This document shows positions 19,987 to 26,460 of a stretch of 64,000 nucleotides of DNA, piece by piece. Numbering within the stretch: the first letter of the stretch is position 1; every line of letters starts with the position of its first letter. The stretch is from Gracilinema caldarium DSM 7334 (GTDB lineage: Bacteria > Spirochaetota > Spirochaetia > Treponematales > Breznakiellaceae). The DNA is taken from positions 2,418,001 to 2,482,000 of the forward strand of contig NC_015732.1 in the NCBI RefSeq assembly GCF_000219725.1, given 5' to 3'. The notes beneath the pieces were generated by a model, which was not told the origin of the DNA, did not search any database, and saw only the letters and a program-made list of their open reading frames with translations. A program made the position numbers and the translations under genes.

Positions 19987-21276
19987 TTATGCACCTGTAA
20001 AAATCATACTGTACAACAAGTAGATATTCAAAATGATTATTATAGCGGTCACCAATGCTCCTAAAAGCCGGGTTGGTTTTGCATTAACAAGTTCACCCAT
20101 AATGGTGGCATCACCGGTAAAATTCATCAGGGGAATAATGGCAAAGGGTAATCCGAAGCTGAGCATAACCTGACTTATCACCAAGGCTTTTGTGGGGTCT
20201 ACCCCCACCATGATAATAACAATAGAAGGTACCATGGTGATGATTCTGCGGAGCCACAGGGGTATTTCAAAATCCATAAAACCTTGCATAATCACCTGGC
20301 CAGCCATGGTCCCCACAGAGGCGGAAGAAAGACCTGAAAATAGAAGAGACAAGGCAAAGACCCAACTAGACGCCTTGCCAAGCAGGGGTTCCAGGGTAAT
20401 ATAGGCCTGTTCAAGGGTGCCCACATTGAGCAAACCCCGACTATGAAAGGTTGCGGCCGACATAATAAGCATGGCGCCATTTACCATACTGGCAATTCCC
20501 ATGGCAACCACCACATCGACTATTTCATAATGGAAAAGTCGCTTTAATAGTTTCGTGTCCCGAACAACAATCCGATCCTGCATTAAAGCGGAATGCAGAT
20601 AAATTGCGTGGGGCATAACAGTTGCACCTAAAATACCCACCGCAAGCAAAATACTTTTGGAGCCCTTAAACTGTGGTATCACCGTATGGAACCAGACCTG
20701 AGACCAATCGGGCTTACCGATCCATAATTCGATTATATAGCTAATCGCAATAACCGACACAAAGCCCGTAATGACCGCTTCCAGAGAGCGGAATCCATAT
20801 CGTTCCAGAGCGAGGATGAGAAAGGTGGTAATCGCAGTGAGCAGTGCCGCCACACCGAGGGGGACGCCTAAAAGGAGATTAAAACCAACGGCGGCCCCCA
20901 AAAATTCTGCCAGGTCCGTAGCCATGGCTACCAATTCCATTAATATCCAGAGGGCCATAACAAACCATCTGGGATATCGGAGCCGGCAGTGCTCAGCCAG
21001 ATTTTTACCAGTTACAATACCCAATTTTGCAGAGAGGGTCTGAATAAGCATGGCCATTAAGTTGCTGGCCAGGATAACCCAGAGCAAGGTATATCCAAAT
21101 TGGGCACCACTTTCTATATTGGTGGCGAAATTACCAGGATCTACATAGGCAACACTGGCTATAAATGCCGGCCCCATAAAAGGAAGCAAGCGAGCAAAAA
21201 AGCCCTTTTTGCTCTTTCCTTCTAGAACATCCTGAGCATCGGCCTGTAATTTTTTATTACTTTCTGTGGATGACAT
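19987..21276 (-). CDS. mntH: NRAMP-family divalent metal transporter
   Basis: This 429-residue proton-coupled Mn/Fe (or Mg) transporter has about eleven helices. The metal-site motifs are present: DPGNFATN in helix 1 and MPHAIYLHSALMQDR in helix 6. The methionine of the MPH motif is kept, which favours transition metals over magnesium. It lies between a PTS IIA-like gene and a Usp gene downstream of mgtA, so import of Mg and Mn may be linked. No good ribosome site precedes its ATG; translation may depend on the gene upstream 15 bases away. Confidence 0.9.
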   Translation of the reverse strand: MSSTESNKKLQADAQDVLEGKSKKGFFARLLPFMGPAFIASVAYVDPGNFATNIESGAQFGYTLLWVILASNLMAMLIQTLSAKLGIVTGKNLAEHCRLRYPRWFVMALWILMELVAMATDLAEFLGAAVGFNLLLGVPLGVAALLTAITTFLILALERYGFRSLEAVITGFVSVIAISYIIELWIGKPDWSQVWFHTVIPQFKGSKSILLAVGILGATVMPHAIYLHSALMQDRIVVRDTKLLKRLFHYEIVDVVVAMGIASMVNGAMLIMSAATFHSRGLLNVGTLEQAYITLEPLLGKASSWVFALSLLFSGLSSASVGTMAGQVIMQGFMDFEIPLWLRRIITMVPSIVIIMVGVDPTKALVISQVMLSFGLPFAIIPLMNFTGDATIMGELVNAKPTRLLGALVTAIIIILNIYLLYSMIFTGA

Positions 21277-21291
21277 AGCTATAGTATTGTA

Positions 21292-22071
21292 TTATTTTGA
21301 TGAGATTGCCAGACAATCATAGACTATCCGGTTCCCCTGATACACCGCCGTATTTCGGCGTATAATCCGCCACCGGCCATTCTGGTAAAAACCATCACTT
21401 TCGAGCTTCTCTGCTAAGGAAGAAATAGCTTCTACATAGCTTAACAGTTCCTGATTTTGGGTTAAGACCAGCGGTTTCTGTCCGGGACTTGTTATAATTT
21501 CTAGAGCTTCCACTACAAGATTAGACAAGTCCTGTACCGGCTGAGACACCGTTGCTGACTTTGCCTGCAGACGGATCATCCGGGCCCGGGCATCGGGACC
21601 AGCAGTTTCCTTACTGGCCGCAATAAGATCCAACAGGTAGTTTCGTACATCATTCAGTTCTTTTAAAGACGCCAGTTTCGAAATCTCGGGGGATGTACTG
21701 ATAACCTTTGCAAGCAAGGAGACTTCCCGAAGATAGTGGTTCCGCTGATTCGACGGAACCAGATACATGGTTATAAGGGATATAGGCTTCCCATCCGGAG
21801 AACCATAGTCTATCCCCGTAGGACTCCAGCCAATAACACACATGAGGTCTTCTTCAAATTCAAGCCGTGCATGGGGACAAGCCCACCCTTTTCCCAGGGC
21901 GGTATTCATCGAGGCTTCCCGGGCCATCACATTACCTACAATATCGGTACCCGTGGGAATCTGCGGGAAAGCTTCTATAATATGGGCTAAAAATTGCAAT
22001 GCATGGGTCTTATCATTTTCTGGTAATTCAAATAGGCGCCCTTCCTGGAGAGCATCGAGTAGGGTATCCAT
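21292..22071 (-). CDS. PTS EIIA-type (PtsN-like) regulatory protein
   Basis: Residues 1-150 form a PTS fructose/nitrogen IIA domain. The phosphorylatable histidine is H67 in GKGWACPHARLEFEE. A roughly 100-residue helical C-terminal extension (about 155-259) is not part of the standard domain. No permease of the PTS lies nearby; the gene sits two bases after mgtA and 15 before mntH. This suggests that the IIA domain senses phosphorylation state and regulates ion transport, as PtsN does with potassium uptake elsewhere. Its role here is inference. GGAG precedes the ATG at a normal distance. Confidence 0.83.
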   Translation of the reverse strand: MDTLLDALQEGRLFELPENDKTHALQFLAHIIEAFPQIPTGTDIVGNVMAREASMNTALGKGWACPHARLEFEEDLMCVIGWSPTGIDYGSPDGKPISLITMYLVPSNQRNHYLREVSLLAKVISTSPEISKLASLKELNDVRNYLLDLIAASKETAGPDARARMIRLQAKSATVSQPVQDLSNLVVEALEIITSPGQKPLVLTQNQELLSYVEAISSLAEKLESDGFYQNGRWRIIRRNTAVYQGNRIVYDCLAISSK

Positions 22072-22073
22072 AA

Positions 22074-24674
22074 TTAAACTCCTTCAAATCTGCGAATAAA
22101 CCAGGTTTTCACCTTGTGAGTAATAACACTGTAGGTAACAAGGTATCCTGCAATCCAAATAAAGTAGGTAGCAGGAAGAGGAACAAAACCAAGAAGTGGT
22201 GCCAACGGAGAATAGGGCAGCCAGACTCCAATCACCATAACAAGGAGGGTCGTAAAAATCATCGGAGGTGATGCCCGACTTTGAATAAAGGGAATCTTGC
22301 GAGTCCTTATGATGTGCACGATGAGTGTCTGCGTTAAAAGGGATTCTACAAACCAGCCGGTCTGGAACAGTCTGGCCAGTTGATCCTGCTGGCCTGATGA
22401 AAGACCTGGATTTAAAAAATCCCTGGTTTTAAAAAAGAACCACATTAATGCAAAGGTAGCATAATCGAATATTGACGATATGGGCCCGATAAATATCATA
22501 AACCGTTTGATATTTTCAATATTCCAATGTACCGGCTTTGCCACTTGTTCCGGATCAACCCGATCTAGGGGAATACCGGTCTGAGAAAAATCGTACAGGA
22601 GATTATTGGTTAATATTTGAATCGGCTGCATGGGAAGGAACGGCAACAGATAACTGGCACCCAACACACTGAACATATTGCCAAAGTTGGAACTTGCCCC
22701 CATCCGGATATATTTAATGATATTGGCAAAGATTTTTCTTCCTTCTATGATGCCTTCTTCCAGCACAAGGAGGCTCTTCTCTAACAGCACAATATCTGCC
22801 GACTCCTTGGCCACATCCACTGCTGAATCCACAGAAATTCCCACATCCGCCGCTTTTAAGGCAGTTGCATCGTTTATCCCATCTCCCATGAAGCCTACCA
22901 CATTACCCTGCCGGCGAAGTTCCTTAACAATTTGCTCCTTTTGGGCTGGGGTAAGTTTTACAAACACGGTTTGTTCCGCCACAGTCTGTGTAAATTGCGC
23001 TTCATCCATCCGGGACAGTTCGGTTCCGCTGATAACCTGGTCAAATTCTATACCAACTTCGCTACAGACCTTTCGAGTAACAAGGCCATTATCGCCAGTC
23101 AGAACCTTTACATGAACCCCCGCTTTGTTCAGTAAATGAATCGCCTCTGTGGCAGATTCTTTGGGGGGATCCATAAAGGCAATATACCCGAGCAAAATGA
23201 GCTTGCTTTCGTCTTCGATAGTAAAAACCTTTTTATCAGTGGGGAATTCTCGATATGCCAGGCCCAGGACCCTAAAACCTTCTCGGTTTAATTTTTCCAC
23301 CTCTTCAAAAAGGTCAGCCCTGATCATATCGATAAGCGGATAAATTTCTTCATCAATTTGATAATGGGTACAGGAACTGTAGATTTCTTCTACCGCACCT
23401 TTGCAGATAAGTACGTTGTCCCCCTCATATTCAACAATGACCGACATACGACGCCGCTGAAAATCGAAGGGAAGCTCATCCACCAGGCGACATTCATCAA
23501 CATTAAGATCGACATGCTCTATGACGGCACGATCGAGAAGATTTTTTAAACCCGTTTGAAAATAACTATTTAGATACGCATAGTTCAAAACCTCTTCACT
23601 CTGATTGCCAATAATGTCCACATGGTGTTCCAAAAAGACCCGGTCCTGAGTGAGGGTCCCGGTCTTATCAGTACAGAGGATATTGATTGAACCAAGGTTC
23701 TGTATGGCGGGTAATTTTTTTACAATAACCTTTTTCTTTGCCATCGCCAGGGCGCCCTTAGCAAGATTCACCGTAACCATCATAGGAAGCATTTCGGGGG
23801 TTAGCCCAACGGCCACAGAGAGGGAAAACAGAAGTGCTTCGAGCCAATTGCCCTTTGTAATACCAACGATACAAAAGACGACACTTACCAGGATCAGCAT
23901 GAACCGAATCATGAGCCAGGTAAAGGAACGGATGCCCCTATCAAAGCTGGTTTCTTCCCGCTTTTCACTCAGTTTTTGGGAAAGGCTCCCAAAGATTGTC
24001 TTTGTTCCTGTGTGAATAACCAGAGCCTTCGCAGTACCGCTGGTAACACTGGACCCCATAAAACAGGCATTGGGTAGTTCCAGGGCAGAAAGATTTTTAT
24101 CCCCAGAGACCTGGGCTGTCTTTTCTACCGGCATGGATTCACCGGTGAGGGCCGATTCACTTACAAAGAAATCTTTGCAGGAAATAATTCTTACATCGGC
24201 AGGAACTATTGCTCCAGCTTGCAAAAGGACAATATCACCGGGGACAACTTCGGACATTTTTATTTCGGTTTCGACCCCATCGCGCAGTACATAGGTCCTG
24301 GATTGTACCCGTTTGCCCAGGGCTTCTACTTCCAGGTTAGATCGTTGATCTAGTATATAAGAAAGTCCGACACTGAGCAGGATCATACATCCGACAATAA
24401 TTGATGAAAGGCTTTCTCCAATGATTGCCGAAACCAGGGCGATCATCAGTAGTTGAACAACCAGAGGGCTGGAGAATCGTTCAAACATGTCGGCGAAAAA
24501 ATTCTTTTTTTTGGCGGTATTTATTTCATTCTTGCCGAATTCGGCGAGCCGTTTTTCTGCGTCCTTTTCGGATAGCCCCGTGGGAAGAGCATCGAGCTCC
24601 GCCAGGGATTCTCCAATGGAACAAGTACAGAATTTAATAAAGCGTGTATTTTCTGCAGTTGATACTTTAGCCAT
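22074..24674 (-). CDS. mgtA: Magnesium-translocating P-type ATPase
   Basis: This 866-residue P-type ATPase of the P3B class has the actuator TGES motif (SALTGESMPVEKT), the phosphorylation site DKTGTLT, the nucleotide-binding KGAVEE and the hinge MGDGINDATALKAADVGISV. About ten transmembrane helices are present, with the Mg-class signature NLLYDFSQTGIPLDRVD. It imports Mg across the inner membrane. The message has a long leader carrying a small peptide gene, a terminator and a hairpin over this gene's ribosome site (see 24675-24935). It heads an operon with IIA-like, mntH and usp genes. Confidence 0.94.
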   Translation of the reverse strand: MAKVSTAENTRFIKFCTCSIGESLAELDALPTGLSEKDAEKRLAEFGKNEINTAKKKNFFADMFERFSSPLVVQLLMIALVSAIIGESLSSIIVGCMILLSVGLSYILDQRSNLEVEALGKRVQSRTYVLRDGVETEIKMSEVVPGDIVLLQAGAIVPADVRIISCKDFFVSESALTGESMPVEKTAQVSGDKNLSALELPNACFMGSSVTSGTAKALVIHTGTKTIFGSLSQKLSEKREETSFDRGIRSFTWLMIRFMLILVSVVFCIVGITKGNWLEALLFSLSVAVGLTPEMLPMMVTVNLAKGALAMAKKKVIVKKLPAIQNLGSINILCTDKTGTLTQDRVFLEHHVDIIGNQSEEVLNYAYLNSYFQTGLKNLLDRAVIEHVDLNVDECRLVDELPFDFQRRRMSVIVEYEGDNVLICKGAVEEIYSSCTHYQIDEEIYPLIDMIRADLFEEVEKLNREGFRVLGLAYREFPTDKKVFTIEDESKLILLGYIAFMDPPKESATEAIHLLNKAGVHVKVLTGDNGLVTRKVCSEVGIEFDQVISGTELSRMDEAQFTQTVAEQTVFVKLTPAQKEQIVKELRRQGNVVGFMGDGINDATALKAADVGISVDSAVDVAKESADIVLLEKSLLVLEEGIIEGRKIFANIIKYIRMGASSNFGNMFSVLGASYLLPFLPMQPIQILTNNLLYDFSQTGIPLDRVDPEQVAKPVHWNIENIKRFMIFIGPISSIFDYATFALMWFFFKTRDFLNPGLSSGQQDQLARLFQTGWFVESLLTQTLIVHIIRTRKIPFIQSRASPPMIFTTLLVMVIGVWLPYSPLAPLLGFVPLPATYFIWIAGYLVTYSVITHKVKTWFIRRFEGV

Positions 24675-24718
24675 GTTTCACCTCTTATGCGGCGGACCGA
24701 TGAGCCGGAGGTGAAAAC
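24675..24718 (-). promoter_or_regulatory. Hairpin sequestering the mgtA ribosome-binding site
   Basis: On the minus strand TTTCACCTC (24708-24716) pairs with GAGGTGAAA (24676-24684), nine base pairs ending one base before the mgtA ATG. An inner CGGC/GCCG stem caps it. The Shine-Dalgarno sequence GAGGTG is wholly inside the stem, so translation should be off unless the stem opens. Confidence 0.65.
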
Positions 24719-24743
24719 GAAACAATACATAACCAACGTATTT

Positions 24744-24786
24744 AAAAAGCGTCCTGATTGGTCCCGTTACGGGAACCCGTATCAGG
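24744..24786 (-). terminator. Attenuator-type intrinsic terminator in the mgtA leader
   Basis: Minus-strand CCTGAT (24786-24781) pairs with ATCAGG (24758-24753), and inside it CCCG (24773-24770) and flanking bases pair with CGGG (24766-24763) around a TAA loop. Five Ts (24748-24744) follow after four bases. The stem begins five bases after the stop codon of the leader peptide gene, so a ribosome at that stop would cover its first arm. Confidence 0.65.
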
Positions 24787-24791
24787 GGGCT

Positions 24792-24935
24792 TTAAAACAC
24801 CCTGTCTATCGGTTGTCTCTCTGTTTCATAACCAGCCATCGGAGTGAACCGTCGCGGTAATGGATCTTCGGAATTGTCTGTATTCACATCATGTACGAGA
24901 TGCACACAACGATGACTGCCATCCGAGTCATTCAT
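24792..24935 (-). CDS. Putative leader peptide of the mgtA operon
   Basis: A 47-codon frame begins at an ATG with AAGGAGG seven bases upstream, the best ribosome site in the region, and ends just before the terminator. It encodes no known domain. Its middle is EDPLPRRFTP, which recalls the acidic-proline-arginine run (PTPLPRRR) of the Salmonella MgtL leader peptide that senses magnesium and proline supply. The likeness is short and may be convergent. Position, ribosome site, terminator and downstream gene together make a regulatory role likely. Confidence 0.62.
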   Translation of the reverse strand: MNDSDGSHRCVHLVHDVNTDNSEDPLPRRFTPMAGYETERQPIDRVF

Positions 24936-24972
24936 AACCGTTCCTCCTTATGCTGATGAATTGTATAGCTTA

Positions 24973-25001
24973 GGTATAGGTTATAAACCTTATCGTGTCA
25001 A
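24973..25001 (-). promoter_or_regulatory. Promoter of the mgtA operon
   Basis: On the minus strand a perfect TTGACA (25001-24996) is followed by a 17-base spacer and TATACC (24978-24973). The spacer contains AGGTT-TAT-AACCT, an inverted repeat that could be an operator. Transcription should start near 24966 and give a leader of about 290 bases before mgtA. The -35 lies two to three bases past the ridA stop. Confidence 0.65.
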
Positions 25002-25444: not shown

Positions 25445-26392
25445 TTACAGCTTTTCTATTTCTTCGATACTCAGGCCGGTTACTTCAGCAATTTCCGCAA
25501 GCGGCATCCCCTTATTTTTGAGGTTTCGAGCTGTCACTCGTATACCTTCATATCGGCCTTCGGTTCTTCCTTCATTTCTTCCCTGCTGTAATCCTTGTTG
25601 TAATCCTTGCTGTACACCCTGCTGTAAACCTTCCTGTAATCCTTGCTGTAAGAGCTCTTCTTTCCATTTTTTAACGGTTGTGGCCAGCATGGTCGGTACC
25701 TCCGTAAGCAGGGATACATCCGCCACCCAGTCGGGGACGGGATCGGCAAAGAAACTATGGAGCCATGATACAAAGGCTTTCACCACCTCAGGCTGTTCCT
25801 GCCTGAGGATGTCTACAATCTGGGTTACCAGCGGCACCAGTGCTTCCTGGTCCGTGGTCTCTACCAGAAACAAGGCTCCAATAAGGTTCTTGAGCGACAA
25901 AAGCCTTTCTCTACTAAACTCGTTCTCTGCTATTTTAAAATAGCGAAACCTGGGGATAAAGTCCAGACTGATCCGCTGGTCGATCAGGTCCGCAAGATTC
26001 TCCGGCGCAGTCCATCGATCATCCCCGTTGTAAAGGAGGATGGGGAACACCGACGGGAGCTTTTTCATGACAGGTCTATCTTTCAAGAGACTACTGTATA
26101 ATTCCAAGGTATAGCGGAGAATTCGCAGGGCCATAAAATGGTCCACCGTGGACTGAAACTCGATGAGGATATAGAGGTATATTTCCTGCCCAGACAGAAA
26201 GGGTACATGCCAGATGAGGTCCGACTCGAGCCTTTTCTGTGAAGCGGTAATGAAGGACTTGTCGATTTTACAGGCACGATTAAAGTCCAGGTCTCTTACC
26301 CAAGGCTCGGGAACACAGGAAAGCAGGAGTTCCCTGAGGAGCTCTGGATGAGAGAAAAGGTCCTTATAACCATGATCATGGGGATGGTGCAT
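25445..26392 (-). CDS. Rpn-family recombination-promoting nuclease / putative transposase (copy 1)
   Basis: This 315-residue member of the Rpn/PDDEXK (Transposase_31) family begins MHHPHDHGYKDLFSHPELL and has the nuclease core LDFNRACKIDKSFI...LIWHVPFLSG and IYLYILIEFQS (D-x-n-E-x-K-like IEFQ). It ends in GLSIEEIEKL. A run of glutamine-rich LQQG/LQEG repeats (about 243-275) links the core to the C-terminal helix. Its paralogue is at 30865. Both ATGs lie six bases after TGTACT. Family members promote RecA-independent recombination in E. coli; the role in spirochaetes is unknown. Confidence 0.85.
   Translation of the reverse strand: MHHPHDHGYKDLFSHPELLRELLLSCVPEPWVRDLDFNRACKIDKSFITASQKRLESDLIWHVPFLSGQEIYLYILIEFQSTVDHFMALRILRYTLELYSSLLKDRPVMKKLPSVFPILLYNGDDRWTAPENLADLIDQRISLDFIPRFRYFKIAENEFSRERLLSLKNLIGALFLVETTDQEALVPLVTQIVDILRQEQPEVVKAFVSWLHSFFADPVPDWVADVSLLTEVPTMLATTVKKWKEELLQQGLQEGLQQGVQQGLQQGLQQGRNEGRTEGRYEGIRVTARNLKNKGMPLAEIAEVTGLSIEEIEKL
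25575..25665 (-). repeat. Short tandem repeat inside Rpn-family copy 1
   Basis: An imperfect repeat with a 12-base period (unit close to TGTAATCCTTGC on the plus strand) runs about seven times and encodes LQQG/LQEG units. The equivalent part of copy 2 (30960-31020) carries a different REG-type repeat, so this segment varies quickly. Confidence 0.75.
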
Positions 26393-26460
26393 AGCTGGAG
26401 TACAGTGAAATACTCGCAAATTGCTTTACTGCACCCGACCGTGAAGTACCATCCTCTCTA

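Follow-up and report, generated by a model that had tools for sequence, protein, structure and literature searches.

A conserved leader peptide and a covarying hairpin before mgtA in Gracilinema caldarium: a candidate translational attenuator with relatives in several phyla

Early acidic residues in the enterobacterial leader peptides MgtL (PMC11282234) and MgtQ (PMC8092293) destabilise the ribosome that translates them, so that mgtA or mgtB is switched on when Mg2+ is low. MgtQ is an eight-residue ORF that precedes mgtB in the Salmonella mgtCBRU operon, with acidic codons at D2 and E5, and its RNA forms either stems 1:2 and 3:4 or stem 2:3, such that stem 3:4 hides the ribosome site of the transporter gene and faltering translation opens it (PMC8092293). 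MgtL, the leader peptide of enterobacterial mgtA, contains an EPDP motif and acts via a Rho-dependent terminator (PMC11282234), and the leader ORF of Salmonella mgtCBR senses charged tRNA-Pro (PMC8092293). Magnesium control through destabilisation of the ribosome by a nascent peptide has so far been known from a few enterobacterial leaders. The stretch of Gracilinema caldarium DSM 7334 analysed here, a window of 64,000 nucleotides, points to a separate and much wider family with a translational output, occupying the position that the M-box holds in related bacteria. The leader upstream of mgtA in this window is conserved as a peptide, is linked to mgtA, is accompanied by a covarying hairpin, and exhibits an excess of complementarity between its ORF and that hairpin. 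We consider it roughly two-thirds probable that these elements constitute a leader-peptide translational attenuator of mgtA, active at low Mg2+.

The gene downstream of the leader encodes a magnesium-translocating ATPase, as originally predicted, with its product scoring 1095.9 bits against TIGR01524 (cut-off 610.75). It is followed, across very short gaps, by an EIIA-2 domain gene and an Nramp/MntH gene, both of which are probable members of the mgtA operon, making 19987-24674 a possible divalent-cation operon under one leader (Table 1). The promoter that had been proposed is there, just beyond the RidA-family gene, and each of the 13 spirochaete leaders compared has a -35/-10 pair like it, spaced by exactly 17 bp, 34-57 nt upstream of its ATG; a generic promoter scan did not call it in the window, because its -10 is not T-ended. 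The 47-codon frame and its strong ribosome site are likewise as described, and all 13 of these leaders have AAGGAG or AAGGAGG at this site. The whole mgtA leader RNA folds more strongly than its dinucleotide shuffles (z = -3.2). Upstream of the RidA gene, on the minus strand at 25445-26419, is a TTG-start ORF with a QGLQQG repeat run near its C-terminus, which we take to recall proteins of the transposase/nuclease families.

Table 1. Coordinates of the mgtA leader, its elements and its neighbours within the window
Feature	Position	Strand	Remark
RidA-family gene	25390-25004	minus	directly upstream of mgtA leader promoter
Promoter TTGACA-17-TATACC	25001-24973	minus	just beyond RidA-family stop codon
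Leader Shine-Dalgarno AAGGAGG	24949-24943	minus	read from sequence
Leader peptide ORF, 47 codons, MNDSDGSHRCVHLVHDVNTDNSEDPLPRRFTPMAGYETERQPIDRVF	24935-24792	minus	conserved peptide; pN/pS 0.33 in frame
D-S-D-G codons (residues 3-6)	24929-24918	minus	best-conserved peptide part; proposed first ribosome-destabilising acidic site
E-D-P-L-P-R-R codons, second acidic/proline motif	24869-24849	minus	(E/D)(D/E/N)P in 24 leaders
Antisequester arm in ORF, CCGATGGCTGG	24842-24832	minus	complementary to 24708-24697
Terminator-like hairpin then TTTTT	24792-24744	minus	rank 1 of 306 candidates
SD-sequestering hairpin TTCACCTC-CGGC...GCCG-CATAA-GAGGTGAA	24716-24676	minus	conserved, covarying
Switch segment CCGGCTCATCGG: anti-SD end + inner 5' arm + loop	24708-24697	minus	alternative partners: SD hairpin or ORF
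mgtA, magnesium-translocating P-type ATPase	22074-24674	minus	TIGR01524
PTS EIIA type 2 domain protein	21292-22071	minus	PF00359; 2 nt after mgtA
Nramp/MntH-family divalent metal transporter	19987-21276	minus	NF001923, PF01566

The leader frame is conserved between species at the level of its codons, as the original prediction needed it to be. Across codons 2-9, pN/pS is 0.33 in the leader frame versus 0.99 and 1.20 when the frame is shifted, signifying purifying selection on this frame and on no other; judged by this conservation, the frame is a real gene, and together with its ribosome site the conserved codons suggest that it is translated. A profile of the peptide finds a single match in each of 16 of the 394 genomes of the order (E 1e-10 to 1e-22), with no second copy at E 1e-4 in any of the 394, none away from mgtA, and none within the genome of the window itself. 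In 15 of the 16, mgtA lies downstream on the same contig, and the contig of the 16th ends just downstream of the leader. Separately, mgtA of a sister species (L034; genome G134, contig C19) has a frame with two stop codons or a frameshift, and is either a pseudogene or the victim of misassembly, the genome being fragmented. The original prediction had likened the peptide to MgtL through a proline/arginine run: an acidic/proline motif is indeed present, at residues 23-29 of the window's peptide, but it is the N-terminal DSDG that is best conserved, with D5 invariant in all 15 aligned leader peptides, which come from several phyla. The second motif recurs in 24 leaders, followed by x-P-R in most spirochaetes.

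Nor is the leader a spirochaete peculiarity. Scanning public genomes for the MgtA protein, such that loci outside the spirochaetes were found through mgtA itself, retrieved from Desulfobacterota, Myxococcota, Acidobacteriota, Aminicenantes and Latescibacterota peptides that start M-x-(D/S)-(S/P)-D-G, with variations, and lie 200-580 nt ahead of mgtA. In Bacteroidota and Ignavibacteria, M-x-D-S-D-E-P-G-A peptides of 17-23 residues precede mgtA, and the pN/pS of the DSDEPGA type is 0.07. A leader family that starts M-x-D-S-D-G and usually has a later E/D-D-P-x-P-R motif thus spans several phyla rather than spirochaetes alone. The peptide has no family in NCBIfam or Pfam at E 0.1; a BorA match to one of 15 leader peptides was taken as chance. 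A search of the open-access literature found the MgtL, MgtQ and mgtCBR leaders and not the DSDG/DSDEPG family. We regard it as an even bet that this is an undescribed family, present in at least five phyla, in which ribosome stability serves as the Mg2+ sensor for the MgtA pump, far wider than enterobacterial MgtL and MgtQ and evolutionarily interchangeable with the M-box.

The hairpin that had been proposed to bury the mgtA Shine-Dalgarno (SD) comprises an outer stem, TTCACCTC with GAGGTGAA, an inner stem of 4 bp and a 3' bulge, CATAA, and this anatomy of anti-SD/SD outer stem, inner stem and 3'-side bulge of about 4-6 nt is common to most leaders. In an alignment of 21 sequences, 92.5% of cells are paired, a percentage favoured by the selection of sequences with clear hairpins, which affects the covariation less: 11 of the 16 pairs changed on both sides, with 23 double-sided changes. 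None of 500 shuffles reached any of these measures, shifting the partner by one base lowered the pairing to about 41%, and shifted consensus structures were far worse. The aligned sequences therefore indicate a conserved mgtA-SD hairpin with strong covariation. In spirochaetes the hairpin hides mgtA's own ribosome site, and at many loci of the Desulfobacterota type it instead hides the start of a short second ORF. At the ten loci tested, mostly of the Desulfobacterota/Myxococcota type, the stop of the second ORF overlaps the mgtA start by 4 nt, and hence opening of the hairpin would open mgtA by translational coupling. This second ORF (L088, L089, L091, L094, L118 and L160) is located downstream of the SD hairpin, some 170-350 nt ahead of the mgtA match; it often starts MKNKxPLFxP, extends to up to 90 codons, and is possibly a coupling device or a small protein.

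The part of the leader ORF after the E-D-P motif is complementary to the 5' arm of the hairpin. In the leaders labelled f4, the counterpart pair is CCTGACAGCTGG and CCTGCTGTCAGG, preserving the pairing with different letters. Compared with dinucleotide shuffles of the frame, this complementarity is in excess in 12 of the 13 spirochaete leaders (p <= 0.04, z from -2.0 to -4.7), with p = 0.066 in the thirteenth; across 44 leaders of all groups the mean z is -1.7, although relatives are non-independent and pooled statistics overstate the evidence. When ribosome positions were mimicked in folding by blocking bases, using a measure specific to SD/anti-SD pairing, the pairing in the window's RNA was 0.96 when naked, 0.04 with a ribosome on the first codons and 0.98 when fully translated. 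The pairing falls by at least 0.3 with a ribosome on the first codons in nine of the 13 spirochaete leaders, as against 2-27% of shuffles; for L003, L024, L030 and L032 the equilibrium model, at its main bounds, shows no switch, and outcomes depend on the RNA ends chosen. An earlier masking scheme, with the ribosome at EDP and SD accessibility measured over all partners, failed to give a clear switch, and for the window it gave none; the pairing-specific, first-codon measure was chosen after that result, and both are reported here. In several leaders of Desulfobacterota and Acidobacteriota the hairpin stays closed in all modelled states, and there the antisequester may be weaker or the mechanism different. 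For the window, the models predict that the 3' part of the ORF can pair with the hairpin's 5' arm, freeing the mgtA ribosome site.

The mechanism we propose would operate as follows. Transcription would begin a short way ahead of the leader frame. When Mg2+ is high, the whole frame would be translated, with ribosome traffic blocking its 3' part from pairing, such that the anti-SD arm and SD would close into the hairpin and mgtA would remain untranslated. At low Mg2+, ribosomes would falter or drop off early at the acidic and proline codons, D-S-D-G at 3-6 and then E-D-P-x-P-R, and the freed 3' part of the ORF would pair with the hairpin's 5' arm, leaving the mgtA Shine-Dalgarno exposed. That destabilisation at acidic codons is the sensing step is suggested by analogy: D3-x-D5 is likened to MgtL and MgtQ because it is located where their acidic residues act. 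DSDG is only mildly acidic when compared with known ribosome-destabilising runs. If true, the fragility of ribosomes at low Mg2+ would be a general sensing principle, and these leaders would offer a covarying, mutable switch for finding which codons make the ribosome drop.

Low Mg2+ is the signal we infer, since MgtA is a member of a Mg2+ transporter family and orthologous mgtA genes of Geobacterales carry a Mg2+ riboswitch in the leader. In line with the original remark that no M-box core is seen, the M-box covariance model (RF00380) has no match in the window at gathering score, and the same was found for the whole genome; 12 M-boxes were found among the collected loci, all before mgtA orthologues and nearly all in Geobacterales, and no DSDG leader was found at these M-box-bearing orthologues. 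The three leader types form few blocks on the MgtA tree, requiring three changes versus 20.7 with shuffled labels. A 17-codon ORF (MDSHSSEYPLPIPFPRR and relatives; L106, L110, L119, L122 and L124) recurs downstream of the Geobacterales M-box and recalls MgtL by its length and PRR end. The window's own family also contains a different, more distant mgtA lineage (L043, L044, L048, L049 and L050), with short frames preceding or overlapping mgtA that contain the acid-proline motifs LEDPYGSKR, DDPYGSK, ADPYSRR and MDDDGGSL, and these may constitute a similar, independent leader.

The original prediction located the output of this leader in an intrinsic terminator, and a terminator-like hairpin does follow the frame. 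It spans 24792-24747, is followed by TTTTT and, at -19.7 kcal/mol, outranks all others among the 306 hairpin and T-run candidates on the window's minus strand; a simple terminator scan did not call it, owing to its internal loops. Such strength could favour transcription attenuation, with translation of the leader setting whether the terminator forms and control exerted mainly by read-through into mgtA, as could the start of the hairpin directly at the stop codon of the leader, since a ribosome terminating there would sit over its 5' arm. However, a 5' arm covered at the stop means that full translation would favour mgtA, contrary to the low-Mg2+ logic, and it is the SD hairpin that is conserved and covarying. 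The terminator moreover occupies a 117-nt spacer between the leader stop and mgtA, whereas in the f4 leaders the SD hairpin occupies the 53-85 nt available and leaves the terminator no space, excluding it as a conserved element, and the nearest sister species (L003) has a different sequence at this position. Hence we consider control by read-through unlikely. As its spacer is absent from the other spirochaete leaders, the terminator-like hairpin is probably a local addition in this species, where it may add a second layer of control. The original interpretation is therefore partly supported: the elements it described are present, but the conserved output appears translational rather than transcriptional, with the 3' part of the ORF pairing with the anti-SD arm.

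The same translational switch might answer to something other than Mg2+, such as the charging of proline tRNA, EF-P or ABC-F capacity, or general elongation stress, and the one to three proline codons that most leaders have in the second motif would suit this, as would the precedent of the Salmonella mgtCBR leader. Yet the best-conserved part of the peptide contains no proline in the DG type, and it is a Mg2+ riboswitch that Geobacterales mgtA orthologues bear instead, making such signals improbable. We think it very improbable that the ORF specifies a small trans-acting protein that targets the transporter in the manner of MgtR and MgtS, with the hairpin independent of it. The peptide is conserved, with 33-52 residues in spirochaetes, but it has no evident hydrophobic segment, no copy away from mgtA in the 394 genomes, and counterparts of just 17-23 residues in Bacteroidota; its C-terminal half varies in length and sequence while retaining complementarity to the SD hairpin. 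Least probable of all is a riboswitch binding a metabolite or metal, with the ORF incidental. The leader is structured and its nucleotides are strongly conserved around the DSDG codons, but substitutions are biased towards synonymous changes in one frame only, and the leader has no Rfam match at gathering score, with sub-threshold matches to Scr2736 and psbNH judged to be chance.

A leader-peptide translational attenuator remains our preferred reading, and it has parallels in several known systems. No conserved terminator follows the leader ORF, as an intrinsic-terminator attenuator would have; instead, the locus has a conserved ORF, apparently translated, a hairpin hiding the SD, and a competing pairing with the ORF, as in translational attenuators. 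In erm-type attenuators the translation state of a leader ORF similarly selects either a hairpin that hides the SD or another pairing, but there the signal is a ribosome-bound antibiotic, and the genes and sequences are others. The M-box holds the same leader position at orthologous Geobacterales mgtA, but its RNA binds Mg2+ directly. Like MgtL, the window's ORF lies directly before mgtA, has acidic and proline residues (EPDP in MgtL; D-S-D and E-D-P here), and is expected to be on at low Mg2+. However, it lacks the N-terminal sequence of MgtL, which we take to be of the EPDPTPLPRR type, and begins with DSDG, leaving by eye only a short acid/Pro/Arg similarity; nor is its conserved output, the SD hairpin, the Rho-dependent terminator of MgtL. 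With MgtQ it shares early acidic codons, here D3 and D5, translational control, and an ORF that, here as predicted by folding, alternates between the SD hairpin and anti-SD pairing. Yet MgtQ is intergenic, enterobacterial and eight residues long, whereas the window's ORF is in a 5' leader before mgtA rather than between mgtC and mgtB, and encodes an unrelated DSDG...EDPxPR peptide, of 33-52 residues in spirochaetes, with another hairpin and a multi-phylum range. Hence the translational output resembles that of MgtQ more than that of MgtL, and while the logic of the attenuator is ordinary, the extent of its leader-peptide family is unusual.
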